This document shows positions 3,080 to 59,847 of a stretch of 64,000 bases of DNA, piece by piece. Below the pieces are notes generated by a model. It searched no databases, was not told the DNA's origin, and was given only the letters and a program-made list of their open reading frames with translations. The stretch lies in NCBI GenBank assembly GCA_002189035.1, contig NEEC01000020.1, forward strand, positions 558,001 to 622,000, written 5' to 3'. Position numbers and translations under genes: made by a program. The stretch is from Utricularia gibba. Lineage: Eukaryota > Streptophyta > Magnoliopsida > Lamiales > Lentibulariaceae. Each line of letters begins with the position of its first letter. The first letter of the stretch is position 1.

Positions 3080-7150
<4,071 letters not shown>

Positions 7151-7162
7151 CCGGAGTTTCTC

Positions 7163-7168
7163 TATAAA
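7163..7168 (+). promoter_or_regulatory. TATA box of chitinase 2
   Basis: TATAAA in the context TCTATAAAGAG, 46 nt upstream of the ATG at 7214. The spacing matches that of the chitinase 1 TATA box. Confidence 0.6.
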
Positions 7169-7213
7169 GAGTCCTCACCGGCAAGCCTCTGTGCCGCAGA
7201 CACCGCTCGGAAA

Positions 7214-8650
<1,437 letters not shown>

Positions 8651-9540: not shown

Positions 9541-9890
9541 CATTTAATTATATTTGATATAATTGATTTTTATTTTTATATATTATTTAATTATAATAAT
9601 TTTTGTTACTTGGGGTTATAAAAGTGACTTAAAAATGGGTTAATTGATTTTTCGATTTATTTATAAATCTGAATTAATTTTTTTATAATAGATTGATGCT
9701 TTAAAATAATTCTTATTAAAATATTTAGAAGAATATAAATTATCTTTTAATCATAATCACATCATTTTTAGATTCTAATAATTAAATATATTTTTTATAT
9801 TTCTTTTATTTTATTTTAAACATTTTGAAAAACAAAAAAAACTATATTAGTATATTGAACAACAATAGCACAAATCTTCGAGTATAACAT
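9541..9890. repeat. Copy of the region that lies upstream of the YSL gene
   Basis: Matches 17040-17350 over about 320 bp with small indels; both share AAGTGACTTAAAAA, ATGCTTTAAAATAATT and ATTGAACAACA. At 17 kb this block precedes the YSL 5' region. Here it runs straight into the block that elsewhere follows the YSL stop codon, as if a YSL gene had been deleted between them. Confidence 0.6.
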
Positions 9891-10963
9891 TTTTGACCTT
9901 GGCTAATCCCTAAGGAAATCGAATCGATTAAACGATAATTAAATGTACTTACAAACTAATAATAGTTAATAAATATTACTCGAATATTCATATAATTTTC
10001 TATATATATATATATATATATTTGTTTATTATTAATATTTAGATTTGATTAAAATTACTCAATTAATATATAAATTAAATGATTAAATGTTTTATTAGAA
10101 AATATAAATACTTGTATTTTAGATGATCAAATGTGCATAATTGTGTTTTGATATATTTGTTATATTAAAGGGAATAAAGTATTTATAAAATCAATCGAAA
10201 GACTATTATTATAACTATTTCATTAAATACAAAATAAATGAAAGTAATCCAAAGGATCCGTGATGATATATCAAATGGGGGAATGAAAGTGTTTAAATAA
10301 AACTCTCATAATTTTATATGAGATATTTTTCTTAAACATCGTAAGTAGATCATATAATATCATATAAGACATGAGTAGATCTTTACATTTGATATCATAA
10401 TGGAATCTATGATTATCCTATTGGTGGGATGAGAGGGCAATCAATGAAGACGCTGAATATCTAATAAGAGTACAATGTAAGGATATAGGTCTAATAATGA
10501 AATTTCATATTAGTTACAGATGATAGAAGAGACGTGCTAAAATAAATAAATTTTTTTAATTTTGTATTAGATTTTTTTCTCAAAAGAGAATAATGTAAAA
10601 CCATAAATATTAGATGTCCGTAACGGACAATATCGTATAAAAGGAAGGTAGGTCGTGACATTTCGACACACCTATGCACCGGAAACATTGGAATCATCAA
10701 TTCCAACGAATTTCCAATTTCTAATATCTTTTATCTACATAATCGTAATAATTTATGATATGTTAAAATCACATTTCTCTGGAATAAACACTTCATAAGA
10801 TTACGTATTTAACAAATATACGAAACTCAATATCAAACTATGTCACATATAAATGCCCTTTAGGCGATTATTTACATAAACATGCACTATTAGTATTTCT
10901 CAAATCAAATCATCACTAATTGCAAAAGTTGAACACTTCTAGAAGGATCAATGTTTTATGAAT

Positions 10964-11086
10964 TTAACCCTCCTCTTGTCCCCCGCCTGATCTCTTTATA
11001 CACCAAGTCCCAATTACATAACTTAGGAAGCCAATAAAAAGACCACCTAAAACAATAAAGAATGACAAAAATATTATATTGTCCAT
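10964..11086 (-). CDS. Micropeptide gene copy A: 40-aa single-span membrane peptide
   Basis: I do not recognise this family. The ORF starts MDNIIFLSFF, runs through one hydrophobic helix (about residues 4-30) and ends with basic residues (CIKRS) and the acidic tail GGGQEEG, then TAA. The upstream gene structure is clear. TATAAATA is at 11544-11537, a leader exon of about 30 nt follows, the donor is GTAACT at 11483, the intron is 11097-11483, and the acceptor TTTTGCAG precedes the ATG by 10 nt. Six other copies share this arrangement. The conserved frame, the conserved C-terminus and the in-frame length differences between copies argue for translation. A single hydrophobic helix with a cytosolic-type basic-acidic tail suggests a membrane micropeptide. 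It shows no similarity that I can recall to OST4, RCI2 or CYSTM proteins. There is no expression evidence. Confidence 0.55.
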   Translation of the reverse strand: MDNIIFLSFFIVLGGLFIGFLSYVIGTWCIKRSGGGQEEG

Positions 11087-11536
11087 GATGACCAATCTGC
11101 AAAACAAATATAATAATTAATAAATAATTCAAATAATATTATCAAAAAATCAAAATATGAATAACATAGTTTGTCTATTGTAATGATTTTTTTATGCTAA
11201 TATTCGTATTTTGTTAATTATATTCAGTTATTTGATTAATTCAAATCCGAATTTCATATTTTTGCTAATATAAAATCTCAAATCAATTAAATACAAAATA
11301 CGATTGTGTTGAATATTCAATTTATATTTAAAAAAACTGATAAAATAAATTAAATCAATGATTTATATTTTAAAAATATGCAATAAATCGAACATTTGAA
11401 TAACTATAAGTCGAAAAATTGATTAAACTGATTATAATTTTTAGTATATTTTAAAAAACAAAATACAATAAAACATTAGTTACGTATTAACGGTGTCTTG
11501 AATGTTGAGTGACCCATTGCATTTGCATTGATAATA

Positions 11537-11544
11537 TATTTATA
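11537..11544 (-). promoter_or_regulatory. TATA box of micropeptide copy A (representative of the family)
   Basis: TATAAATA inside CCCTATAAATATAT. The equivalent positions are 25637-25630 (D), 28134-28127 (F) and 13189-13196 (G, plus strand). Copies B and C have TTTAAATA (15717-15710, 22753-22746) and E has CATAAATA (26821-26814). The next 30 bp (CAAATGCAATGGGTCACTC) are also conserved and would contain the transcription start. Confidence 0.55.
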
Positions 11545-12117
11545 GGGAAATAAATGAATTTTGTGAATTAAAATATAATTTTGATAATTTATTTTTAAGG
11601 GAAAATCATTATTATCTTGACAGAAAAGGTTTTTATTTTTCAAATAATATTTTTCTTTATTATTAACAACACAAGAAATGTGATATTGGATTATTTTGAT
11701 TTTGAAAATTTTTAAATTGATTTTGTTGTGTAAATTGAGAATCTATAATATGTAAAATTAAATTTGAAGAAAATGAATTGGATTCCACTTATATTATTTT
11801 TTAAAGCAATTGAATATTAAAAAAATTAGTTATAATTTTATTAAACTTATTTTGCTTTTAAAAATAAAAAATAAAAATCTATTTGAAAGATATTTTTCAA
11901 TTTAACATCAATAAATCTTATTTTAAAGACTACCAGAAATGAAAAATTATTCCTTCTATTATATAAACTATAATTATTTGATTATGGTGTTTGACTATTA
12001 AGAAATTATTTTAATAAAATATAAATTAGAGTTTACAATTTTAAGAAAAGTAAAAATGACTATATATTTATGTTAGAAAAGAAAGAAGAGCAATATATTT
12101 ATGTTAGAAAAGAAAGA

Positions 12118-12262
12118 AGAGCAGGAGAGACGTTGAGGTTTGGAACAATCCCCGTTGTAAGATTCATCTTCATCACTATTTTGTTATCTGTTTGCTGCAC
12201 CTCTTAAACCTATCCCACTGCTTCCCTCTACATTTCCATTTGTGTGGTCATCTTCAGATACC
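12118..12262 (-). pseudogene. Fragment of YSL exon 1, inverted
   Basis: The reverse complement matches the YSL start region at about 18244-18480. It covers the codons around the initiator (GGTATCT.AAGATG), the IPPW region and the segment for [15 protein letters not shown], but two internal stretches are deleted. It lies at the centre of the palindrome between peptide copies A and G. It is a relic of another YSL gene copy and cannot encode a transporter. Confidence 0.75.
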
Positions 12263-13608
12263 CAGTTAGGGTCCAAATTGAAAATAATTTTTCTGTAGTA
12301 CCTAAATTGCAAATATCAGTAAGATCATCCCTGAATTCAAATTTGTCAAGAGTTCAGACCTCCACAAAATAATTATATGTTCGACTAATATTTAATCAAT
12401 TATTAGTTTGTAATTATATTTAATCAGCGTTTAATCGATTTGATTTCTTTGTGGATTAGTCAAGGGAAAAATTACTACATTGTTTAATAAACAAAAATTT
12501 AGTATATTAAATTATAAAAATTGAAATATAAGATAATAATCTCTATTGATGGAATTATAGACATAGTATTTATTTTAAGTAATTTATTATAAAAATATTT
12601 TAAAATTAGTTAAAAAATAAATAAATTCTTCTCTAAAATAACATAAATATATAGTTATTTGTTATTTTTTCAAAATCACAAACTCTAATTTATATTTTAT
12701 TAAAATAATTTCTTAATAATCAAAGACCGTAATGAAATAAACTAATAGTTTTTATAAAGAACGAATATTTTTTTTATTTCTTTTATTCTTTAAAATAAGA
12801 TTTATTTATATTCAATTGAAAAATATCTCTCAAGTAGATTTTTATTTATTATAATATAATATTTTTTATTTTTTAAAAACAAAATAAATTTAACAAAATT
12901 TGAATAAATGTTTTTAATGTTCGATTGTGTTAACAAATTATGCAAGCGGAATCCAATTCACTTTCTTAGAATTCAATTTTTCAGATTATTGATTCTGAAT
13001 TTATACAATAAAATAAATTTAAAAATTTTTAAAATCAAAATCATCCACATATCACATTTCTTGTGTTTAATAATAAAGAAAAATATTATTTGAGAAATAA
13101 AATTTTTTCTATCAAAATAATAATGATTTTCCTTTGAAAATATATTAATAAAATTATATTTGTAATTCATAAAATTCATTTATTTCCCTATAAATATATC
13201 ATTAATACAAATGCTATGTATCACCGAACATCCAAGTCACCTTTGATAGGTAACTAATGATTTATTATCTTTTATTTTTAAAATATAATAAAAATTATAT
13301 TGCATTTAATTGATTTTTCCACATATAGTTATTAAAATGTTCAATTTTTAAAATATAAATTATCAATTCAGTCTATTTTATCATTTTTTAAGTATAAATC
13401 GAACATTCATTATAACTGTATTTTATATTAGTAAAAATATGAAATTCATATACTCAGTTAATCAATTAACTCAATATAACTAACAGAATACGGATATTAG
13501 AATCGAAAATCATTAAGCTACATAAATTATGTTATTCATATTTCGATTTTTTGATAACATTTTTGAATTATTTATTAATTATAATATTTGTTTTGCAAGT
13601 TGGATAGC

Positions 13609-13709
13609 ATGTACATATTTTTTTATGTTCTTTTCTTATTGCCATCATAGGTGATGTAATTCGGGATTGTTGGAAAAAGATAGTGAACATGGGACAAGCG
13701 GAGGGTAAA
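13609..13709 (+). pseudogene. Micropeptide gene copy G, degenerate
   Basis: The only plus-strand copy. The promoter (TATAAATA at 13189-13196), leader exon, donor (GTAACT at 13250) and acceptor (TTTTGCAAG ending 13599) are retained. The ORF lacks about 20 nt after the ATG at 13609, which shifts the frame. The C-terminal codons for MGQAEG are recognisable but the stop codon is lost (GGT AAA). Probably not functional. Confidence 0.65.
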
Positions 13710-15146
13710 TTTCGTAAAATATCGATTTTTCTAGAAGTATTCTGTTTTTGTGATTGGTGATGATTTAATATGGGAAATACTACTCATACATGTTTATGTA
13801 AATAATTAGCTGAGAAACATTTATATATGAGATAGTTAGATGCTAAGGTTCATGTGTTTAATAAATATGTAATAATATAAGATTATAATCTTATGAAGTG
13901 GTTATTCTAGAGAAATGTGATGTTAATACATTATAAATTATTAAAATTATGTAGATGAAAGATGTTGAAAACTCACAATTCATTGGAATTGGTGATTCTA
14001 CCACATTCAACATACGGGTGCGGTGAAATGTCGCGATATACACTTGTATTGCATTCAGACCCCTAATAATTATTAAATTTGTTAATCCATTTATTTTTGG
14101 ATTGTATTTTCAGTCTCCAATAAAAAATATCAAAAAAATTGTATCCAAGATATTTAGAAATTTAGGATAGATAAAAGATAAGAGTAACTATAAAATCAAT
14201 AAAATTACATGTTTAAAATAAATAATATCATGAGTATACAAGATATTTCATTTTTATATTCGTTTTTATTTAAAAAATAAATTTATATTTTATACAATAA
14301 CATTTAAAATATCTATTTTTTAACGAATAGATAAATCAATTGGATGAATAGATTCATTTGAAATCATTGCAAAAATGTCCAGATGATGCATTCGAGTTGA
14401 AAGCAAAGGTTTATTATTAGTATGTAGGTTTGATTAGAGTTACTCAATTAAGATGTAAATTAAATTATTAAAGGTTTTATTTGAAAATATCAATGTTTGT
14501 ATTTTAGATGATGAAATGCACATAACGTTGTGTTGATAAATTTGGGAAATTATACAGAATAAAGTATTTATAAAATTTATCAGAAGAGTTTAATTACAAT
14601 TGTTTTATTCAATATAAAATAAAAGAAATTAAGTCGAGGAGTCTAGTGATAATATTCTACATTAATTATTAATGGAAGAAGAGACATGTTTAAATAATAT
14701 CTTTCTAATTTTATATTCAAAACATATAATATAATGAAATACAAGTCTAAGTTGTGACATTTCAACATACCTATATGCGGGATGCACTGGAATCAACAAT
14801 TTCAATGAATTCTCAGTTTCTAACATCTTTCATTTACAAAATTATAATGTGTTAACATCGCATAAATCTAGAATAACCACTTCATAAAACTATCAATATT
14901 TATTACATATTTATCGATAAAATTATAATGTCATAAGCATGTACTAGTAGTATTTCCCAAATCCAAACATCACCAATCGCAAAAATCGAACACCTCTAAA
15001 AGTATCGGTATTACATATTACCAATCTTATATATAAATGCTCCTTGTCAATTAATTACATAAGCATGTAATAGTAGTATTTCTCAAATCAAATCATCACC
15101 AATCGTAAAAACTGAACACCTCTAAAAGTATGGGTATTTTATGAAT

Positions 15147-15272
15147 TTAACCCTCTGCTTGTCCCACGGGTGATCTCTTTCTGCAACAACAACAAATTAC
15201 ATAACATATGAAGGCAGTAAGAAGAAGTCAACTGAAAAAACTGCAGAATATGAAAAATATCATAATGTCCAT
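15147..15272 (-). pseudogene. Micropeptide gene copy B, one nonsense codon
   Basis: Starts MDIMIFFIFCSFFS, then has TGA at codon 15, then continues LLLTAFICYVICCCCRKRS and ends GQAEG, TAA. The rest of the frame is intact over 42 codons. Other copies have Cys or Gly codons near that site, so a single substitution could explain the stop. The intron is 15283-15656. The weak TATA (TTTAAATA) and the stop suggest a recent pseudogene; a sequencing error is possible. Confidence 0.6.
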
Positions 15273-16624
15273 GATACCCAATCTGCAAAACAAATATTAT
15301 AATTAATAAATAATTCAAAAATATTATCAAAATATCGAAATATGAATAACATAATTTATCTATTTTAATAATTTTTCGGTTTTAATATTTATATTTTATT
15401 AGTTATATTCAATTATTTCATTAATCAAGTATCCTAATTTGATATTTTTACTAATATAAAACCTCAAATCAATTTAACAAAAAATACAATTATGTTGGAA
15501 GTTTTATTTATATTTACAAAAATTGACAAATAAATTAAATCTATTATTTATATTTAAAATATACAATAAAATCGAACTATATGTTGAAAAATCGATTAAA
15601 CAGAATATAATTTTTTATTATATTTGAAAAACGAAATACTACAAAACATTAGTTACCTATCAAAACTTCGTTGGACGTTGAGTGACCCATTGCATTTGCA
15701 TTGATGATATATTTAAAGAGAAATAAATGAATTTTGTGAATTAAAAATATAACTTTCATAATTTATTTTTAAAGATTTTTATTTTTTAAATAATATTTTT
15801 CTTTATTATTAAAAACTCAATAAGTGTGATATATAGATGATTTTTTATTTTGAAAATTTTTTAAATTAATTTTTTTTGTGTAAATTCAGAATCAATAAAC
15901 CGAAAAATCAATTTGAAGAAAATAAATTTGATTATGCTTATATAATTTGTTAATGCAATTGAACATTAAAAACATTCGTTCAAATTTTATGAAACTTATT
16001 TTTCTTTTAAAATAAAAAATATTATATTATAAAAATTAAAAATCAATTTGAGAGATATTTTTCAATTAAACATGAATAAATCTTATTTTAAAGAATAATA
16101 GAAATAATTATTATTCCTTCCTTTATGTAAAGTCTTAGTTTATTTGATTATTAAGACATTATTTTAAAACATTATAAATTACAGTTTACGATTTAAAAAA
16201 AAATAAAACATGACTCGATATTTATGTTATTTTAGAGAAGAATTCATTTATTTTTTTAACTAATTTTTTAATATTTTTTTACATAATGAATTATTTAAAA
16301 TTAATATAATGTACCTATAACTTTTATTCTATCAATAGATATTATTAGCGTATATTTCAATTTTTTAAAATTTAATAAAGTAATTTTTTGTTTATTAAAA
16401 AATTTAATATTTTTTTCCTCTTGGGTATTTCCCTAGGAAATTGAATGGGTTAAATTGATTAATAAATATTACTTGAACATATGACAGTTATTTATTCGTC
16501 AATAAATTTAAATTGTAATATATTATATTGGTATTCGTATAATTTTATATATATTTCTTGTATTTTAATTTGGTTAGAATTGCACAATTAAGATTTAGAT
16601 TAAGAAATTAAGCATTTTATTAGA

Positions 16625-16820
16625 TACTATGCATCGCTATGGGGCATTCGGACGGATGGTCCCTAGACCAAAAGGTGCCCTCGCATACTATTAGCTTCAA
16701 ATGAGATATCAGTTTGTAATTTGTAATCCCCAAAATTAACAGTTTGTAATGTATCTTCACATTTTCCTTTAATATTGACTACCTCTAAATTTATTAAACA
16801 AACTAAATTCAACATTGTTG
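16625..16820. repeat. Dispersed repeat, partner at 27435-27645
   Basis: Both copies contain GGGGCATT, GATATCAGTTTGTAATTTGT, AACAGTTTGTAATGT and CTTCACATTTTCCTTTAATAT. At 27.6 kb the repeat merges into the 3' flank of peptide copy F. Here it follows block X after copy B. No coding potential is seen. Confidence 0.6.
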
Positions 16821-17349
16821 CCGTTAAACATCGGTCTTGTGAAGCGTGCTGATTTCGGGAATAAATGCAGGTTAGATACTAGTTTGTATTGATCTAAAGC
16901 CGGCCGATTTATGCTAAATATGGAAAAGGAGTTAGATATTTTTTACGTGGAAATATAGGTGGAAAAACTACGAAGTTGATGATAATTTCATTAATCATAT
17001 AATAATTAATGAGATTTTCCGCAAAATTTCATTAACCATATAATTTTATGTTAATAATAGTTTTTGTTACTCGGGTTAAGAGAAGTGACTTAAAAACCCT
17101 AAAAACGGGTTGATTAATTTTATTTATTTATTTATACATTTGAATTAATTTTTTATAATAGATGCTTTAAAATAATTTTTAAATATATTTTAAATATTTA
17201 GAAGAATATAAATTATTTTTAATTATCCTCACATCATTTTTAAATTCTATTAATTATAATTTATTTTTGACGTATTTATTTTATTTTATTAAAAACATTT
17301 TTAAAAACCAAAAAAATGCTATTTTAGTAAATTGAACAACAGTACAAAT

Positions 17350-18261
17350 CTTCTTCAAATATGCAGTCAAAATCATCAAAAGGAATTCAAACTTGGGTAA
17401 AGTGCCGTTTTGATCACGAAAGTCGGAATCTTTGTCCACTGTGAATCACGGGAGGAGAAGGGGTTGACGAGAAAGGCAAGTGATGACGACGGCAAGCTTC
17501 AGACTTCCATAAGCTTTTATTTTTTATTTTTTCGTATCGCCATGATCTATCGTTCCTTACTCATCTCAGTGTAAAGGGGGATCTTGAGCATTTTTGCCGG
17601 AAGGCTGTTAATGGGTCAATTGTTGACGTTATCTGATGCTGAGCGAATTTCCAGAAACTAACTATGCTAGCTGATCGCATCTCGAAAACACAAGATTTCG
17701 TCTCCCCATTTTCTCCAACGTTGTTGCAAACGCAGGGATTGTTGGGATCAGTTACGAGTCGTCTCCTGCTATATGCATCATGGTTGTTACTGAAGCCATA
17801 TTTAAAGCCCCAGAGTAGCGATCTGTTTCCTTAGCTTTTTTTCCGGAAGGCTGTTAATGGGTCAACGACGAAAAAGGTAGCGATTGTTTTGTTTTCTTCC
17901 CTCAGCACCCCATCTCTTACGCAAACGCTAGAATATGATTGGGTAGTACGAATTCTAAACTTGTACTGCTGCAGTACATCAAAAATTCTAAACATTCTTT
18001 AAGCAGTTGTCATCGTCTTCCAATTTGGAGGGCCGTCTGGCGTTGTTGGCTGATTTGGGTCTTTTTCCCTTTTTATACCTGGCTGATTATCGCCACCCGG
18101 GCGAAGTTGTGAAAGGACATCGAACTGGGGGTGGCGTTTTTTTCTTTCTCCAATTCGGTTTTGTTTGGTTTCCTCATCGAGAGGGAATTTGTCTTTATTA
18201 ATAACCAGTTCCTCATCCGGGTGCGTTGGGTTTTGCTAGACATCCAGGTGGGTATCTAAAG
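17350..18261 (+). other. YSL upstream region and 5' leader
   Basis: Moderate GC, no supported ORF. A 23-bp direct repeat (CCGGAAGGCTG, TTAATGGGTCAA) occurs near 17599 and 17847. Several short ATG-started frames before 18262 would be upstream ORFs if transcribed. I could not place the transcription start. Confidence 0.4.
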
Positions 18262-21140
18262 ATGGCCACAGAAATGGAGATTGAGAGGGAAGCAATGGGA
18301 GAGATTTCAGAGGTGCAGCAAGCAGCTATGAGTATTCCTCCGTGGAAACAGCAGATAACAATCAGAGGGATACTTGCCAGTATAGTTATCGGGATTATTT
18401 ACAGTATAATAGTGATGAAGCTGAATCTTACAACGGGGATTGTTCCAAACCTCAACGTCTCTGCTGCTCTTCTTGCTTTTGTTCTCATTGGAACATGGAC
18501 ACAGATTCTTGAAAAGGCCAATATTGTGACCACACCATTTACTAGACAAGAGAACACAGTTATTCAAACTTGTGCTGTTGCTTGCTATGCCTTAGCTTTG
18601 GGAGGTGATTCATTTTGAGCTCTGGATGCTTTTGTTTTGTGTTGCTTGGTTACCGAATAATCCAAATGTTAAGTTGTGTAACCAGGTGGCTTCGGTTCAT
18701 ATCTTCTGGGATTGAACAAGAGAACTTATGAGCAAGCAGGGGTTGATACAAAAGGGAATCCACCTGGGAGTTACAAAAATCCAGGGCTTAATTGGATGAT
18801 CCCCTTCCTTTTGGTTGTCAGCTTTGTTGGATTATTAGCCATGGTTCCCCTGAGAAAGGTGAAAGCACAGCCAAGAAGTTGAAATTGTATTCTACATGCG
18901 TGTTTTGTTTGGTTTCCTCATCCTCATTTTTTTTTTTTATTTGCAGATAATGATAATAGATTACAAGCTAGCATATCCAAGTGGAACAGCAACAGGTGTT
19001 CTTATCAATGGATTCCATACAAAGAAAGGAGACAAAGCAGCAAAGTATGGTCATCCTCTTTTAGCTGTTGAGATTAGAAAAGGAAATCAGTTACTAATGG
19101 CAATTAACCTGGCTTTCTAAATGAATCTTCAGGAAACAGGTGAATGGATTTCTAAGGTTCTTCTCCCTCAGTTTCATCTGGAGTTTCTTCCAATGGTTCT
19201 ATTCCGGTGGTGAGCAGTGTGGCTTCATACAGTTCCCAACATTCGGCTTGAAAGCATGGAGACAAACGTGCAGTCCATTATTCTCATTTTCTAACTATTG
19301 CTACTCTTTTCAATTGCAACCATTAACTAAAACAAAGTTGATTTCTGCAGATTTTATTTCGACTTCAGCATGACATATGTAGGAGCCGGCATGATCTGCT
19401 CCCATCTGGTGAATTTTTCTCTAGTTTTTGGAGCTGTACTTTCTTGGGGAATCATGTGGCCCCTAATACATGCTAACAAGGGGAGCTGGTTTCCAGCAGA
19501 TATTAGTGAGGGTAGCATGAAGAGTTTAAATGGCTACAAGGTTGGTCTAAGAACCTTCATCCTCCATGTGGAATTTCAAATTGGTGTTGTGCCTAAGCTT
19601 CATTCTTGATCATTATTTCCCTTATGTACACAGGTATTCATTTCAATCGCCCTTATTCTTGGTGATGGGCTCTACAATTTTGTCAAGACTCTCATCATCA
19701 CTATCAGAAACATGCATGCTACGTTCAGAAAGCATCATTTTGGAATAGGTGATCCCTAGTGCCATTTGACCTTAAATTTTCTTCTCAGATTACATAGAAG
19801 TTGATCTTGTGTGAAGTTTAAACAGTTATAATCACATCGTTTTAGCTTATTCGTACACATGCTTTCTCCTCTCCTCCATCTGTATGTGTTATGTTTCTGT
19901 ACAATTGTGTCAAGAGTCCCATCTTCACTATCAGAAACTTGCATGCTACATTCAGAAAGCATCATCTCGGAATAGGTGACCCATAGTGCCATTTTACCTT
20001 AAACTTTCTTCCCAGATTGCATAGCAGTTGATCTTGTGTGAAGTTTCAATGGTTACAGAAGAATTGTCTTCTTAGTTTATTGATGCACATGCTTACTCTT
20101 CTTCTCCCTGTGTGGAATATGTCTGCTGTGGTTTATTCTTTTGCACTTCCAACTGCATTCCATGGGAGACTTTTCTTATCTTGCTAACATGTATATCAAC
20201 AGTGAGACCAGAAGAAAAGGGGGAGAACTTGGATGACATCCAACAAAATGAAGCCTTCATGAGTGAAAGCATTCCTCTGTGGGTGGCTTGTGCAGGATAC
20301 ACATTCTTTGCCGTGATCTCCGTTGTCGTCATCCCGATTATGTTTCCTCAGCTCAAGTGGTACTACGTGCTCGTCGCATATATCATCGCCCCCACTCTGA
20401 GCTTCTGCAACGCCTATGGAGCTGGTCTCACTGATATAAACATGGCCTTCAACTACGGCAAAGTGGCTCTCTTCATCTTGGCTGCTCTTTCCGGGCAAGA
20501 AAATGGAGTCGTCGCCGGACTTGTTGGATGCGGTTTAGTCAAGTCCATGGTTTCCATCTCCTCAGACTTGATGCATGACTTCAAAACAGGGCATCTCACA
20601 CTCACATCTCCTAGAGCCATGCTCATCAGTCAGGCAATCGGCACTGCCCTCGGCTGCCTGATCGCCCCTCTCACATTCTTCCTCTTCTACAAGGCCTTCG
20701 ACGTCGGAAACCCGGAGGGCATCTACAAGGCGCCATACGCATTAATCTACCGGAACATGGCGATTTTGGGAGTTGAGGGCTTCTCAGCCTTGCCACTCCA
20801 CTGCCTGCAGCTGTGCTATGGCTTCTTTGCACTAGCAGTCCTGATAAACTTGGTTAGAGATGTGATCCCACAGAAGTTGGGCTTCTGGATCCCCCTTCCG
20901 ATGGCAATGGCCGTGCCATTTCTCGTCGGAGCCAACTTCGCCGTCGACATGGGGGTGGGGAGCTTGGTGGTTTATCTGTGGCATAAGATTGATAGCAAGC
21001 AGGCTGGTTTGATGGTTCCTGCGGTTGCTTCAGGGCTGATATGTGGAGATGGGCTCTGGATATTGCCTTCCTCCATTCTTGCCTTGGCGAAGATCAATCC
21101 CCCCATTTGTATGACATTTTTGCCCTCAACTAATTCCTAA
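18262..21140 (+). CDS. YSL: Yellow Stripe-Like oligopeptide-family transporter (metal-nicotianamine), 7 exons
   Basis: YSL proteins carry Fe, Cu, Zn or Mn chelated to nicotianamine or related ligands across membranes. My exons are 18262-18604, 18686-18858, 18947-19044, 19133-19267, 19351-19540, 19634-19748 and 20203-21140. They total 1992 nt (663 aa, close to the usual 670) with every junction in frame. Family blocks include [91 protein letters not shown] and [16 protein letters not shown]-like segments; there are many membrane spans. The ATG at 18262 ([10 protein letters not shown]) fits family N-termini better than the in-frame ATG at 18226. The last codons (after PPICMTFL) run into array block X. 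A 227-bp tandem duplication enlarges intron 6. It appears to be the only intact YSL gene of the cluster. Confidence 0.93.
19673..20127 (+). repeat. 227-bp tandem duplication of the end of YSL exon 6 plus intron
   Basis: 19673-19899 and 19900-20127 align throughout: both carry ACTATCAGAAAC.TGCATGCTAC-type exon sequence followed by GTGA.CC.TAGTGCCATTT. The second copy includes a complete pseudo-exon 3' end with its own GT donor, but it lies wholly inside intron 6. Divergence of roughly 15-20% by eye indicates it is not recent. Confidence 0.75.
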
Positions 21141-22178
21141 TGAAAATTGAATTGATTAAACGATAATTGAATATAGTTACAAACTAATATTAATTAAAAA
21201 TTATTAATCGAATACTTGTATAATTTTCTATATATTTTTGTTTATTATTAGTATTTAGGTTTGTTTAGAATTATTGAATTAAGATATAAATTAAATGATT
21301 AAAGGTTTTATTAGAAAATATAAATGTTTGTATTTTAGATGATGAAATGTGCATAATATTGTGTTGATATATTGAGAAATCAGACGGAATAAAGTATTTA
21401 TAAAATTCATCGAAAGAGTCTAATTATAATTGTTTCATCAAATACAAAATAAACGAAAGTAAATCTAGGAATCTAATGATGGTATACTACATTGATTATT
21501 GATAGAGAAGGGAGCGTGTTTAAATATGATCACCTTAATCTTATATGAGGTTTTTTATTAAGAAAATAATAACGTAAAATCGTGAGAATTGAATACATAA
21601 AATATATAATATCATGTAAGGCGAGCATGAATAGTAATGAGATGGTAAACAATCAACAGGGATGTTGAGTGTCTAAAAAGAAAAGAATATAAAGACACGG
21701 ATCTAGTGGCCATATCTCAAATTAGTTATGTATGGTGAGTAGACTTTTTGAAATAGATAAACTCTTTTAATTTTACATGAAATTGAGGATAACATAAAAC
21801 ATTGAAGATTGAATGTGTGAAACAGATAATATTGTGCCATATGAGCATAAGTCATGACATTTAACTACATCCATGTGCCGAATGCACTGGAATCATCAAT
21901 TCCAATGATTATCAGATTGTAACATCTTTCATCTACACAACTATAACAATTTATAATGTGTTAATATCACATTTCTCTATAATAACCATTTTATAAGATT
22001 ATCAATCTCATATTATTACATATTTATCGAACACACGAAACTTAACATCAAACTATGTCATATATAAACGTTACTTTGGCAATTATTTACATAAACATCT
22101 ATTAATAATATTTCTCAAATCAAATCATCACCAATCACAAAAACTGAACATTACTAGAAGCATCAGTATTTTATGAAT

Positions 22179-22310
22179 TTAACCCTCCTCCTGTCCCCCA
22201 TGTGATCTATTTCTCCAACAACCGCAAATTAAATAACCTATGAGGGTAATAAGAAAGGTACATAAAAAAATGGAGATTACAAAAAGTATCAGAATGTATA
22301 TGATGTCCAT
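22179..22310 (-). CDS. Micropeptide gene copy C: 43-aa membrane peptide
   Basis: Starts MDIIYILILFVISIFL, continues through a helix to LIGYLICGCWRNRS and ends HGGQEEG, TAA. It is three codons longer than copies A, D and F, an in-frame difference. Here the ATG begins directly at the first base after the acceptor TTTTGCAAG; the 10 nt seen elsewhere are missing. The intron is 22311-22692 and the TATA-like TTTAAATA is at 22753-22746. It lies 1.04 kb downstream of the intact YSL gene, tail to tail. Membrane localisation is inferred from hydrophobicity only. Confidence 0.55.
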   Translation of the reverse strand: MDIIYILILFVISIFLCTFLITLIGYLICGCWRNRSHGGQEEG

Positions 22311-23999
22311 CTTGCAAAAAAAATATTATAATTAATAAATAATTAAAAAAATACTTTCAAAAAATAGAAATATAAATAACATAATTTATCTAGTCTAATG
22401 ATTTTTCGATTCTAATATCCGTATTTTGTTAGTTATATTCGGTTATTTGATTAATTGAGTCTCCAAATTTCATATTTTTACTAATATAAAACCTCAAATC
22501 AATTCAATGAAAAATACAGTTATATTACATGTTTGATTTATATTTAACTGATAAAATACATTAAATCAATTATTTATATTTTTAAAAATATGCAATAAAA
22601 AACGAACATTTCAATAACTATATATCGAAAAATCGATTAAATGGAATACAATTTTTTCTTATATTTCAAAAACGAAATAGAACAAAAGTTACCTATCAAA
22701 TATGCTTTGGACTTTGAATGACCCATTACATTTGCATTGATAATATATTTAAAGGGAAATAAATGAATTTTGTGAATTCAAAATATAATTTTAATAATTT
22801 AATTTCAAGGGAATATTATTATTATTTTGACATAAAAAAATTATTTTTGAAATAATATTTTTTTTATTATTAACAACATACGAAATGTGATGTGTGGATG
22901 ATTTTGATTTCGAAAATTTTTAAAATTCGTTCAAATTTTACTTTTAAAAAATAAAAATATTATATTATAAAAAATAAAAATCTATTTGGGAGATATTTTT
23001 CTATTAAACATGAATAAATCTTATTTTAAAGAATAACAGAAATAAAAAATTGCTCCTTCTTTTATATAAACTATTATTTTATTTGATTACGGTCTTTGAT
23101 TATTAAGAAATTATTTTAATAAAATATAAATTAGAGTTTATGATTTTAAAAAAAATTGAAAATGACTTTATATTTATGTTATTTTTAGAGAATAATTCAT
23201 TTATTTTTTTAACTAATTTTATAATATTTTTTAATAATGAATTATTTAAAATAAATACGATGTATCTCCAACTATTATTATATCAGTAAAGATTATTATC
23301 TTATATTTCAATTTTTTAAAACCAATTATACTAAATTTTTGTTTATTAAAAAATGTAATAATGTTTTTTCCATTGGCTAATTCCCAAGGAAATCGAATCA
23401 GTTAAACGATGATTAAATATAATTACACACTAATAATTGATTAATAAATATTACTCGAACATACAACAATTATTTGCTCGTCAATAAATTTAAATAATAA
23501 TATATTATATTGGTATTCGTATAATTTTTATACATATATCTAGTATCTAAATTTGATTAGAATTTCATAATTAAGATTCAGATTAAGCAATTAAGCATTT
23601 TATTAGAAAATACAAGTATTTCTAGGTGAATTTTCGGGAAGCATTGTGGAAATAATTTTTTTGACCACAATAGTCTTACATTCTTGATTGTCGAATAGTA
23701 AACAACATTAGAAAATTATAATGATTTCTTAGATGAGTGTTATGAATTCTACCAGTTATTATTTTTATAATAGTTTATAGAGAAATAAGTAGTAATTTAT
23801 ATAATGATAAATATGTAATAAAATAAATTTCATTTTTATAAACATATTATTTCTTTAAAATGGATCGTGTAAGTTCTTTTTTTGTTTATTTATATTTCAA
23901 ATTTTTTTAATAATGCTATAAAAAAATTTTATTAAACACTTTATTGCAAATTTTAATGTGAATATCACCACTTTCGAATTCTAGAATATGTAAAAAATG

Positions 24000-24450
24000 A
24001 TGGAATAGGCATTGCCCTCGCCTGCCTAATTGCCCCTCTCATTCTTCCTCTTCTACAAGGCCTTCGACGTCGGAAACCTGGAGGGCATCTACAAGGCGCC
24101 ATATGCATTAATCTACCGGAACACGGCGGTTCTCGGAGTTGAAGTCTTCTCAACCTTGCCACTCCACTGCCTGTAGTTCTGATGAACATGATCAGAGATG
24201 TAATCTCACAAAAGTTGGGCTTCTGGATCCCTCTTCCGATGGTGATGGCCGTGCGGTTTCTCATCAGAGCAAACTTCGCCGTCGACATGGGGGTGGGGAG
24301 CTTGGTGGTTTACCTATGGCATAAGATTGATAGCAAGCAAGCTGGTTTGATAGTTCCTGTGGTTACTTCTGGGTTGATCTGTAGAGATGGACTTTAGATC
24401 CTACCTTCCTCTTATCTTGCTTTGGCGAAGATCAACCCCCAATTTGTATG
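24000..24450 (+). pseudogene. Truncated copy of the YSL 3' exon
   Basis: Corresponds to about 20630-21115 of the intact gene, starting at GGCA.TGCCCTCG. It carries a deletion of about 20 nt in the codons for [13 protein letters not shown], in-frame stops (CTGTAG and GACTTTAG) and small deletions near its start. The codons for [13 protein letters not shown] (here [13 protein letters not shown]) and [20 protein letters not shown] are still clear. It ends in the same array block as the intact gene, just before peptide copy D. No function is expected. Confidence 0.85.
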
Positions 24451-25102
24451 ATATTTTTTCCCTCATTTAATCCTTACTCGAACACATGACAATTATTTGT
24501 TAATCAATGAATTTAAATGATAATATATTATACGAATACTCGTATAATTATATGTCTTTTTATGTGTATTTTTTTTATTTAGATTTGATTAGAATTAACA
24601 AGGATGCTCTAAGAGGAGAGAATGTAAGGATAGAGGTCTACTAATGATCTTATATTGGCTATGTACAATAGATAGGATGTGTTTAAATATGGAGAATCTT
24701 CTAATCTTGTATAATACAATTTCTTTATAATTGGATAACGTAAAATCGTGAGAATTAGTTATATGAAATGGACAGTATCGTATAAGATGAAGATGAATCA
24801 TCACATTTCGTCAAACTGATTCGTTGGATGCACTGGAATCATCGATTCCAACGAATTCCCAGTTTCTACATCTTTCATCTACAGTAATAATTTATAATGT
24901 GTTAACATCACATTCTTTGGAATAATCAGTTCATAAGATTACCAATCTCGTATTATTACATATTTATCGAACAAATGGAACTCAACATCAAACTATGTCA
25001 TACATAAATGCTCCTTAGGCAATTATTTATATAAACATAGTAGTATTTTCCAAATCAATCGTAAAAACCGAACACTTCCAGAAGAATCGGTATTTTACGA
25101 GC

Positions 25103-25225
25103 TTAACCCTCCGCTTGTCCCCCAGACGATCTATTTCTCAAACAACCCCAAATTACATAACCTAGGAAGGCAATAAGAAGGCAACAGAAAAAAATGAAGA
25201 GTACGAAAAGTATCAGAATGTCCAT
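25103..25225 (-). CDS. Micropeptide gene copy D: 40-aa membrane peptide
   Basis: Starts MDILILFVLFIFFCCLLI, then AFLGYVIWGCLRNRSSGGQAEG (given here as two parts of one ORF), TAA. It has the best-preserved promoter (TATAAATA at 25637-25630) and splice sites (donor GTAACT at 25578, acceptor TTTTGCAG at 25236). Uniquely, an ATG in the leader exon (25610) is in frame with the main ORF after splicing. That would add about 14 residues (MDHSTLKSFDRSGI). This ATG sits about where transcription should begin, so it may not be used. It lies next to the YSL 3' fragment, as copy C lies next to YSL. Confidence 0.6.
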   Translation of the reverse strand: MDILILFVLFIFFCCLLIAFLGYVIWGCLRNRSSGGQAEG

Positions 25226-26136
25226 GATGCCCGACCTGCAAAACAAATATTATAATTAATTGATAATTCAAAAATATTGTCAAAAAATCGAAATAGAAAT
25301 AACATACTTTACCTAGTTTAATGATATTTCGGTTCTAATATCCATATTTTGTTAGTTATATTCACTTATTTGATTGATTGAATATACTAATTTCATATTT
25401 TTGCTAATATAAATACTCAAATCAATTAAATAAAAAAATATATTAAATTGATAATTTATATTTTTAAAAATATGCAATAAAACCAAACATTTTAATAACT
25501 ATAAGTTGAAAAATCGATTAGACGAAATATAATTTTTTATAATATTTCAAAAACGAAATAGAACAAAACATTAGTTACCTATCAAATGACTTCAACGTTG
25601 AGTGATCCATTGCATTTGGATTGATGATATATTTATAGAGAAATAAATGAATTATGTGAATAAAAAATATAATTTTAATAATTTAGTTTCAAGAGAAAAT
25701 TATTATTATTTTGAAAGAAAAGATTTTTACTTTTTAAATAATACTTTTCTTTATTATCAACGACACAAGAAATGTGATGTATGGATAATTTTGATTTTGA
25801 AAACTTTTAAATTACTGTTGTGTAAATTAAGAATCGATAAACCAAAAAATTGAATTTAAAGACAGTGAATTTGATTCCACTTATATAATTTTTTAATGCA
25901 ATTGAACATTAAAAACATTACTTCAAATTTTTTTAAATTGATTTTGTTTTTAAAAATTAAAAATATTATATTATAAAAATTAAAAGTATACTTAAGAGAT
26001 AATTTTCAATTAAACATGAATAAATATTATTTTAAAGAATAACAGAAATAAAAAGTTATTCTCTCTTTTATATAAAAAATTAATTTATTTGATTACGGTC
26101 TTTCTTTTATATTAGAAGGATTGATATTTTACAAAT

Positions 26137-26259
26137 TTAACCCTCAGCATGTCCCTCGTGCAATCTATTTCTCCAACAACCTCAAATTGCATAAATTAGG
26201 AAGGAAATAAGAAGGCCACCGAAAAAAATAAGGAGTATGAAAAATATCGTAGCGTCCAT
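26137..26259 (-). pseudogene. Micropeptide gene copy E, inactivated twice
   Basis: The frame is retained for 41 codons (starts MDATIFFILLIFFGG, ends GHAEG) but codon 26 is TGA where other copies have TGG. The acceptor AG is also lost: position 26270 is A where intact copies have C on the plus strand. The TATA is CATAAATA. Two independent defects make it a clear pseudogene. Confidence 0.7.
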
Positions 26260-26501
26260 GATGTGCAAAATGCAAAACAAAATTTTAGTTAATAAATAAT
26301 TCAAAAAATACTGACAAAAAATCGAAATACAAATAACATAATTTATCTTGTTTAATGATTTTTGATTCTAATGTATGTCGTTTGTTAACTATATTTAGTT
26401 ATTTGATTAATCGAGATTCTAATTTCATATTTTTACTAATATAAAACATCAAACTAATTAAACAAAAAATACAGTTATGTTGAATGTTCGATTTATATTT
26501 G

Positions 26502-26711
26502 AAATATTAATAAAATAAATTAAATCAATGATTTATATTTTTAAAAATATGCAATAAATCGTACATTTCAATAAATATAAGTCAAAAAATCGATCAAATT
26601 GACTATAAATATTAATAAAATAAATTAAATCAATGATTTATATTTTTAAAAATATGCAATAAATCGTACATTTCAATAAATATAAGTCAAAAAATCGATC
26701 AAATTGACTAT
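26502..26711. repeat. Exact 105-bp tandem duplication
   Basis: 26502-26606 and 26607-26711 appear identical by eye. They fall in the intron of peptide copy E. Perfect identity, in an array whose other copies differ widely, implies a very recent duplication or an assembly artefact. Confidence 0.85.
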
Positions 26712-27764
26712 AAATTTTTATTATATTTTTAAAAATGAAATAGAAAAAAATATTACTTACATGTAAAAGGTAACTTGGATATTAATTGACCCATTTCATT
26801 TGTAATGATGATATATTTATGGGGAAGTAAAAAAATTTTGTGATTTATTTTCATTTCTGTAAATTTGAAATATAATTTCAATAATATATTTTCAAGGGAA
26901 TAAAAACATTATGCTGACAGAAAATATTTTTATTTTTCAAATAATATTTTTCTTGATTATTAACAACACAAGAAATATGATATGAAGATAATTTTGATTT
27001 TAAAATTTTAAATTGATTTTGAAAATAAAAAATGATTCTACATTTATATTATTTTCAGATAAGAATTTATTTTTTATAATAAAATTAGTTTTATAGTATT
27101 GTTATATAATAAATTGTTTAAAATACATATTATGTTGTTATTCTAACCTAATAACAAATTATAACATAAGTATGAAATATAATAAATTGATATGATGTTG
27201 TTGAAAATAAATTGTAAAATTGATAGTTTAATTTCTATTTTTCGTTTCTATTATCTTTCAAAAAAAAATTATAAAATTATAAAAAAAATATTAAACACTT
27301 TAATGCAAATTTTTTAGTTGACTAGGGCATTGGGGATGATGCAATTCTAAACTCGAATTTTAACGTGTAAGTCATTTTCGGTTTCTGGAACATTTAAATA
27401 TGATGAAATAATGTAAAATTTCTTGTTTGTAGTGCAATCCTATGCATTACTGCGGGGCATTTGGACTCGTGGATGATCCCTAGACCAAAGGTGACTTCGC
27501 TCACTGTTCGCTTCGAATGTGATATCAGTTTGTAATTTGTGCGGAATTGCATTATTCCCAACCTTAACAGTTTGTAATGTGTCTTCACATTTTCCTTTAA
27601 TATCAACTACATCTAAATTTATTAAACAAACGAAATTCAACGTCAAACTATATCATATATCAACGTTCATTCGAATTTTTTACATGACCATATACTAGTA
27701 GTATTTCATAAATCAAACCATCATCCATCATAAACCCAGTTCGATGGATCGGTATTTTACGAAT

Positions 27765-27887
27765 TTATCCCTCAGCCTGGTCATTGCCTGACTTCCTACA
27801 CTCCCAAACTTCATAACCTATGAAGGTAACAAGAATGAAGGCAAAGATGCCCATAACTATATAAAATACAGTTAGTATCTCGATCAT
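27765..27887 (-). CDS. Micropeptide gene copy F: 40-aa membrane peptide
   Basis: Starts MIEILTVFYIVMGIFAFILV, continues TFIGYEVWECRKSGNDQAEG, TAA. It is the most divergent open copy: the second residue is Ile instead of Asp and the Cys pattern is reduced, but IGY, W.C, the basic residues and QAEG are kept. It has a strong TATAAATA (28134-28127). The intron is short (27895-28064, 170 nt), with donor GTAATT and acceptor TTTTGCAG. Survival of the frame despite this divergence is the best sign of selection in the family. Confidence 0.6.
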   Translation of the reverse strand: MIEILTVFYIVMGIFAFILVTFIGYEVWECRKSGNDQAEG

Positions 27888-28769
27888 GTCTAATCTGCAA
27901 AACAAACATTATAATCACAAGTTTAATAACTATAAAATCAAAAAGCCGATCAAAATGAATATAGCTTTTATTGAATTTGGGATTTATATTTTCAAAAAAC
28001 AATCGATAAAATTGAAAATTAACAATAAGATTAAAAAATTGAAGCAGAACAATACATTAATTACCTTTCAAATGATATGAGCTGGACTTAGGATATTGAG
28101 TACCCATTGTATTTGCATTCATGATATATTTATAGGAGAGTGAATGGATTTTGGTGATTTATTTTGCATTTTGTGAATTTACATACAATTTTAATAATAT
28201 TTTCAAATGCACCGAAATTATAAAGGCATTTCATTTTCCAATAATTTTAATAGAAAAAATTGCTAATTTTTTCAAATAAGATTTTCTTTATTATTAATGA
28301 TACAAGAAATGTTATAATTGATTTTATTAATTAAATTGATAATTGATTAATAGAAAAACCGAATTGAAAGAAAATGAATTTGCTTTTGTTTTTTTTTAAT
28401 TTTTGAAGAAAATGAAAAAATAGATATCCTATTGTTCAAATTTCATTTAACTCATTTTTAAATTAAACAAATTAAAATAATTTATTGGAAAAAAACAATT
28501 TGAAATCTCTTTGGGAGAGGTTTTTCTTCCAAAATAATATTCTTGGATTTTATTTTTAAATACAAACAATTTCTATTCTAAAAAATATCAGTAATTAAAA
28601 TTAAAAAATGATTAATTTTCATTTTTTGATATATTTTGAATTTCTCATTTTTTAAAATAAAAAAGAATATTAGTATGTACAAAATATAACATTAATTTTT
28701 AAAATTATGTGGAGGTGGTGGTATTTGGGCTTGGGCTTGTGCATGGTGACCAGAAAATGGGATGATAAT

Positions 28770-59083: not shown

Positions 59084-59706
59084 CTTCATGGAAGCCAGAA
59101 AAGGCATGCCAGGTATCATATGTACTGACTGATACACAAACAAAAGATGCCTCTTGACCCTCGTGGTGCTTCTGAACACACGAGCGTTGGATGTGCATCC
59201 TTTGACAACAAACACTTGTTACCTGTTCTTGAGAGTGCATTTATTTAACAATGCTTATAATGTTGGTGCTTTCTGTTGGTAGTGGCATTGCCTTCACTTA
59301 CTTTAGGGATCCCTTTGATGAACAACGCGAACTCGCCATTGAATATTTAGACTTCCAGTACCTGAAAGTTTAAAAGAGTAAAAAAAATATGGAAATATTC
59401 CCGGTGCTTGATCTTCCAGTGTCCCCCTGAAGGACGCAAGGAACGACAGTGATACGCCATTTACGTGTATAATCAAGGAAAGTGGCGAATTAAAAGAAAG
59501 GTGATATGAGCCACATGAGGATCGCCGTTCCTCTTAGTATCAAGAGAAACGGACTTGGAAGACTAAGCGGCTGGGTTCTCTGTAGCTTATGAATTTAGTT
59601 AAGTGCAGCGCATAGGAAACAACAGCACTGGACCGTCCATAAGCACAAAAATGAAGCTAAAACAAAAAGAAAAGCCTCAGAATTGCAGAATTATCATCAC
59701 TGGGAT

Positions 59707-59847
59707 TCAGTCCCGAAAGATGGTGTAATTTATACAGATTTCCTCATCGGCCGGCAGAAACGAAGAATCGAAAAGAAAATTACTGCGAGAAGACAACCCT
59801 AACCTCGGCGACGACGATCGGAGTGAAACTGAAAAACGAGTCGCCAT
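59707..59847 (-). CDS. Possible first exon or short ORF divergent from RPS27a
   Basis: An ATG at 59847 follows TATAAATA (59906-59899, minus) and starts MATRFSVSLRSSSPRLGLSS, which looks like a mitochondrial or plastid targeting sequence. The frame is open for 46 codons to a stop at 59707. A donor-like AG/GTTAGG after SSSPR suggests it could instead be exon 1 of a small spliced gene extending to about 59390. I could not find a continuation that matches a known protein. It shares its promoter region with RPS27a. Confidence 0.35.
   Translation of the reverse strand: MATRFSVSLRSSSPRLGLSSRSNFLFDSSFLPADEEICINYTIFRD

Follow-up and report, generated by a model that had tools for sequence, protein, structure and literature searches.

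The window, a stretch of 64,000 nucleotides of Utricularia gibba DNA, corresponds to positions 558001 to 622000 of contig C317 in an assembly of 100 Mb and 516 contigs. Its genes are of flowering-plant type and include two GH18 chitinase genes, an OPT/YSL transporter gene, an ABC transporter gene and a ubiquitin-S27a fusion gene. The chitinase genes are placed divergently (window positions 3080-8650); their assignment to the class III type and the identification of an RPP1-like gene were made by eye. A piece of an intron of the second chitinase gene recurs in inverted orientation at 14054-14402 (77%), and the YSL gene carries an internal tandem duplication at 19670-20113 (82% identical). The only Rfam match in the window is a SNORD96 snoRNA on the minus strand at 59672-59753. 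Far from it, between the two chitinase genes and the RPP1-like gene and around the YSL/OPT transporter gene, sits a cluster of short ORFs encoding putative micropeptides.

The first-pass annotation had placed seven copies of such a gene here, four of them open, and all seven (7/7) are present (Table 1). Alignment of the seven copies supports a single homologous family, and the four ORFs described as open are so: A (40 aa), C (43 aa), D (40 aa) and F (40 aa). The remaining three of the seven (B, E and G) are dead, B and E by one in-frame TGA each; in copy G the terminal stop has in addition changed from TAA to AAA. The family had been called multi-copy, and protein and DNA searches of the assembly recovered all copies within this one stretch. 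No further copy was detected outside the cluster in the 100-Mb assembly by a search that skips very common words. A transposable element was considered and rejected, because the copies detected by this search are not dispersed and all lie in one 17-kb stretch of the contig. Pfam, NCBIfam and the PDB contained no relative, in agreement with the earlier description of the family as one without a match.

Table 1. Peptide-gene copies, the repeat units that carry them and YSL sequences in the cluster (window positions)
Feature	Position	Strand	Description or basis
Copy A	10964..11086	-	open 40-aa ORF; TATA from 11543 downward; intron 11483-11097
Copy B	15147..15272	-	one in-frame TGA, one extra codon; intron 15656-15283; pseudogene as assembled
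Copy C	22179..22310	-	open 43-aa ORF, displaced in-frame ATG; intron 22692-22311
Copy D	25103..25225	-	open 40-aa ORF; nearest to family consensus; intron 25578-25236
Copy E	26137..26259	-	in-frame TGA; acceptor AG missing; pseudogene as assembled
Copy F	27765..27887	-	open 40-aa ORF; most diverged copy; intron 28064-27895
Copy G	13609..13709	+	inverted; 22-nt frame-shifting deletion, stop lost; pseudogene; intron 13250-13599
Unit carrying A	9882..12075	-	repeat comparison
Unit carrying G, inverted	12367..14032	+	repeat comparison
Unit carrying B	14409..16630	-	repeat comparison
Unit carrying C, directly after intact YSL gene	21109..23607	-	repeat comparison
Unit carrying D, directly after dead YSL fragment	24437..26103	-	repeat comparison
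Unit carrying E, shorter	26110..27135	-	repeat comparison
Unit carrying F, diverged	27617..28527	-	repeat comparison
OPT/YSL-type transporter gene, intact	18205..21140	+	span of recognised exons
Dead duplicate of last YSL exon	24004..24471	+	3 frame-breaking indels, 2 stops; copied with peptide unit

Homology extends past the parts of the gene into duplicated units of about 1 to 2.4 kb including flanks, and as copies of a duplicated unit the seven exceed chance. The flanks resemble each other about as much as the ORFs do, or more. Six units are oriented one way and one (G) is inverted; units A and G lie head-to-head as a long inverted repeat. Several units have the 3' end of the YSL gene at their edge, and the D unit adjoins a dead duplicate of the final YSL exon, which shows that the end of the transporter gene and the peptide gene were copied together. 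Positions 12108-12376, between the A and G units, are pieced together from two inverted fragments, one of a YSL exon (85-96% identical) and one of a chitinase intron (92%), and resemble filler DNA from template switching.

We identified a homoeologous segment on contig C1 (780.7-797.0 kb), in which a YSL paralogue and an RPP1-like gene keep their order and are separated by a cytochrome b5 gene (L001 7500-8550). No copy of the peptide gene was detected in this segment; it may equally well have been lost there or gained at the locus studied here. No trace of the cytochrome b5 gene was found in the window, in which units C to F occupy the corresponding place. Derivation of the peptide from the cytochrome b5 tail anchor was rejected, given that the peptide produces no alignment to the anchor and its orientation is opposite.

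In the alignment, the copies show the same order of a TATA-like element, a donor GT 58 to 69 nt downstream, an intron, an acceptor and the ORF. This architecture had been called fixed; a TATA-like box, a leader, an intron and an ORF do recur, but there are exceptions in E, C, F and G. The TATA-like element, described earlier as shared, is found in all seven copies, although its sequence varies: TATAAATA in A, D, F and G, TTTAAATA in B and C, and CATAAATA in E. The proposed leader of about 30 nt takes its length solely from the usual TATA-to-start distance. A donor GT is present in 7/7 copies and the acceptor reads TTTTGCAG or TTTTGCAAG; introns of 170 to 387 nt in six copies agree with the earlier description, but E is without an acceptor AG and its intron would be 490 nt long. 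That intron also contains a perfect 105-nt tandem duplication (window 26502-26711), which is far younger than the copies. In copy C the ancestral ATG is now ATA and the ORF begins instead at an in-frame ATG three codons further upstream, and in copy F the start ATG lies one codon upstream of the family position, also in frame. In the intact copies, the AUG of the ORF is the first AUG past the expected transcription start. Conservation of the promoter and leader does not exceed that of the intron or the flanks. The TATA/leader block of copy F reached a somewhat higher likeness (0.81) than the average of 0.68, but the scan for a conserved promoter was not significant, with its best window (P = 0.135) located elsewhere.

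The peptides had been assigned one hydrophobic helix, and we indeed found a single, strongly hydrophobic one in each of the A, C, D and F peptides. Among the ATG-initiated ORFs of 35 to 50 aa in the first 31 kb, these four are the most hydrophobic; random sequence with a matching dinucleotide composition yields 0.2 such hydrophobic ORFs per 18.6 kb. An AlphaFold2 model consists of one helix spanning residues 2 to 36 (mean pLDDT, 88). The tail of the peptide is short and carries Arg/Lys beside the membrane, and the N-terminal residue is acidic in most copies; given this basic tail, the positive-inside rule predicts an outside N-terminus and a cytosolic C-terminus. Transmembrane (TM) positions of copies A to E change frequently, with one change to a polar or charged residue or to Pro, versus 5 to 6 expected (P = 0.02 to 0.05). 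A helix of free sequence and fixed hydrophobicity fits a peptide that would act by its presence in the membrane or by loose pairing with a larger membrane protein.

It had further been stated that length differences keep the reading frame. This is true of copies A to F, in which the ORF indels measure 3, 3 and 6 nt, but not of G, where the 22-nt deletion shifts the frame. By comparison, approximately 85% of the indels in noncoding parts would break a frame, and the ORFs of A to F contain no frame-breaking indel, versus a mean of 6.8 (minimum, 2) in 123-nt noncoding windows. Since the low GC content of the flanks could inflate the indel rate, we used the dead YSL fragment (GC 0.48, higher than the flanks, and of similar divergence) as a control. 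Over 499 nt, this fragment acquired 3 frame-breaking indels in one lineage, a rate that predicts about 3.7 frame-breaking indels in five dead copies of the ORF. For the distant pair F and D, the neutral probability that both are stop-free with the terminal stop kept is 0.06, that of no frameshift is about 0.07 to 0.09, and that of both together is about 0.005. The tests of indels, of joint intactness and of hydrophobicity are modest and partly overlap, the indel counts are small, the alignment of F is uncertain in the TM core, and the probabilities are optimistic because the ORFs were noticed for being open. Based on these small numbers, the reading frame is preserved beyond chance in A to F.

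We looked for purifying selection on amino acids among A to E and found it absent. Pairwise dN/dS was 1.2 to 3 among these copies and 0.4 to 1 against F. Similarity between ORFs does not exceed that between flanks or between introns, which base composition explains: the rate of change at G and C sites here is about 3 to 4 times that at A and T sites, and given their composition the ORFs change at about the rate of the flanks. The first-pass annotation had named a dN/dS near 1 across many copies and equal decay of coding and noncoding parts in all relatives as findings that would refute a gene family, and the data come close to both, with dN/dS not below 1 among A to E and the same composition-corrected rate in the two kinds of sequence. 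Premature stops in A to E (2 seen versus 5 to 5.5 expected; P = 0.07 to 0.11) are not significantly rare. Another reading frame or the other strand was also considered as coding; frame +1 has an excess of change at third positions, yet it contains 4 to 5 stops in A, C and D. For genes such as these, indel-based and dN/dS-based tests of ORF preservation can disagree.

These results leave room for a decaying local repeat, unselected since the duplications whether or not its ancestor was a gene, whose open frames are neutral survivors in a T-rich, stop-poor stretch that happens to encode hydrophobic residues. The composition-corrected divergence, the dN/dS values and the frequency of stops all agree with it, and in one neutral star-tree simulation at least three of the five copies A to E were stop-free in 30% of runs. 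However, such a repeat accounts poorly for the lack of frame-breaking indels in the ORFs of A to F, for the in-frame position of the relocated starts of C and F, for the joint intactness of F and D, and for the scarcity of polar changes in the TM segment. We consider this explanation possible but rather doubtful.

It is improbable that the RNA product is what matters, as a spliced noncoding or siRNA-producing transcript aided by the head-to-head A/G inverted repeat, with the ORF incidental. The promoter, splice sites and flanks have persisted alongside the ORF, and this and the long inverted repeat speak for such a product. Nevertheless, frame-specific retention would be left without a reason, Rfam offers nothing in the window except the remote SNORD96, and the A and G genes diverge from a shared centre, such that only antisense read-through would produce a hairpin RNA. 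Diversifying selection of an arms-race type in the membrane helix is more improbable still: a codon-model dN/dS of 2.4 among A to E (2dlnL, 7.0) and 47 TM replacements versus 29 to 32 expected (P = 0.0003 to 0.003) point toward it, but the signal counts the dead copies B and E and is not frame specific, an equal excess appearing in the wrong frame +2 (P = 0.007) and an excess in 2 of 18 noncoding windows (P = 0.01 and 0.023), and positive selection is therefore not claimed.

To the reading that the cluster is a young, lineage-specific orphan family of single-pass membrane micropeptides undergoing birth and death, we give even chances of being correct. As a working gene family, it is only partly supported: by the frame kept in A to F and by the open frame of the distant copy F, but not by the dN/dS among A to E, by the decay of coding sequence at the pace of noncoding sequence, or by a cluster that is small, local and partly dead. 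Such a family would have originated once and then spread by local segmental duplication around the YSL transporter gene. An intact copy would be a complete small gene with a TATA-like box, a short untranslated leader, one intron and an ORF beginning at the first AUG, and its product of about 40 residues would comprise an N-terminus beginning MD or MI, a single membrane helix and a short basic tail facing the cytosol. Most likely, the peptide would reside in the membrane and pair its helix with a larger membrane protein, as other membrane micropeptides do. Selection, where it acts, may retain the frame and a helix that is hydrophobic, whatever its exact sequence; the four open and three dead copies would represent birth and death in progress. 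A narrower version, in which a newborn family keeps its frame and hydrophobicity as the helix diversifies from one tandem copy to the next, being selected as a membrane helix and not for its sequence, appears unlikely. Transcription, splicing, translation, topology and function of the family are predictions from the DNA sequence, from which a new species-specific gene family is plausible.

Micropeptides of the phospholamban/sarcolipin type are single-helix regulators of membrane pumps. The U. gibba peptides are like them in size, in their one helix and in their short charged tail, but show no sequence relation, and we do not claim membership. In yeast, thymine-rich DNA has been described as a source of short membrane ORFs that emerge de novo (Vakirlis et al. 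2020, PMC7005711). Like those ORFs, the peptide family combines a short single-helix ORF, T-rich intergenic DNA of low GC content, no relatives detected (here in its own assembly, Pfam, NCBIfam and the PDB) and weak or no purifying selection, and it fits this kind in composition and behaviour; unlike them, it occurs as seven local copies with a recurring promoter-leader-intron anatomy. With plant small-ORF (non-canonical) peptides (reviewed in PMC12983248), it shares a length of about 40 codons, a size usually skipped by gene finders, but no sequence relative was found and it is not of the secreted Cys-rich or hormone type. We place the family, with a putative function, as a candidate among the orphan membrane micropeptides, an already known kind. 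If it is not translated, the cluster would be an ordinary decaying local duplication. If it is translated, it would be an example from a plant of a membrane micropeptide that is young and has a promoter and an intron of its own, and its adjacent live and dead copies would allow a test of whether hydrophobicity is selected before sequence in new membrane peptides.
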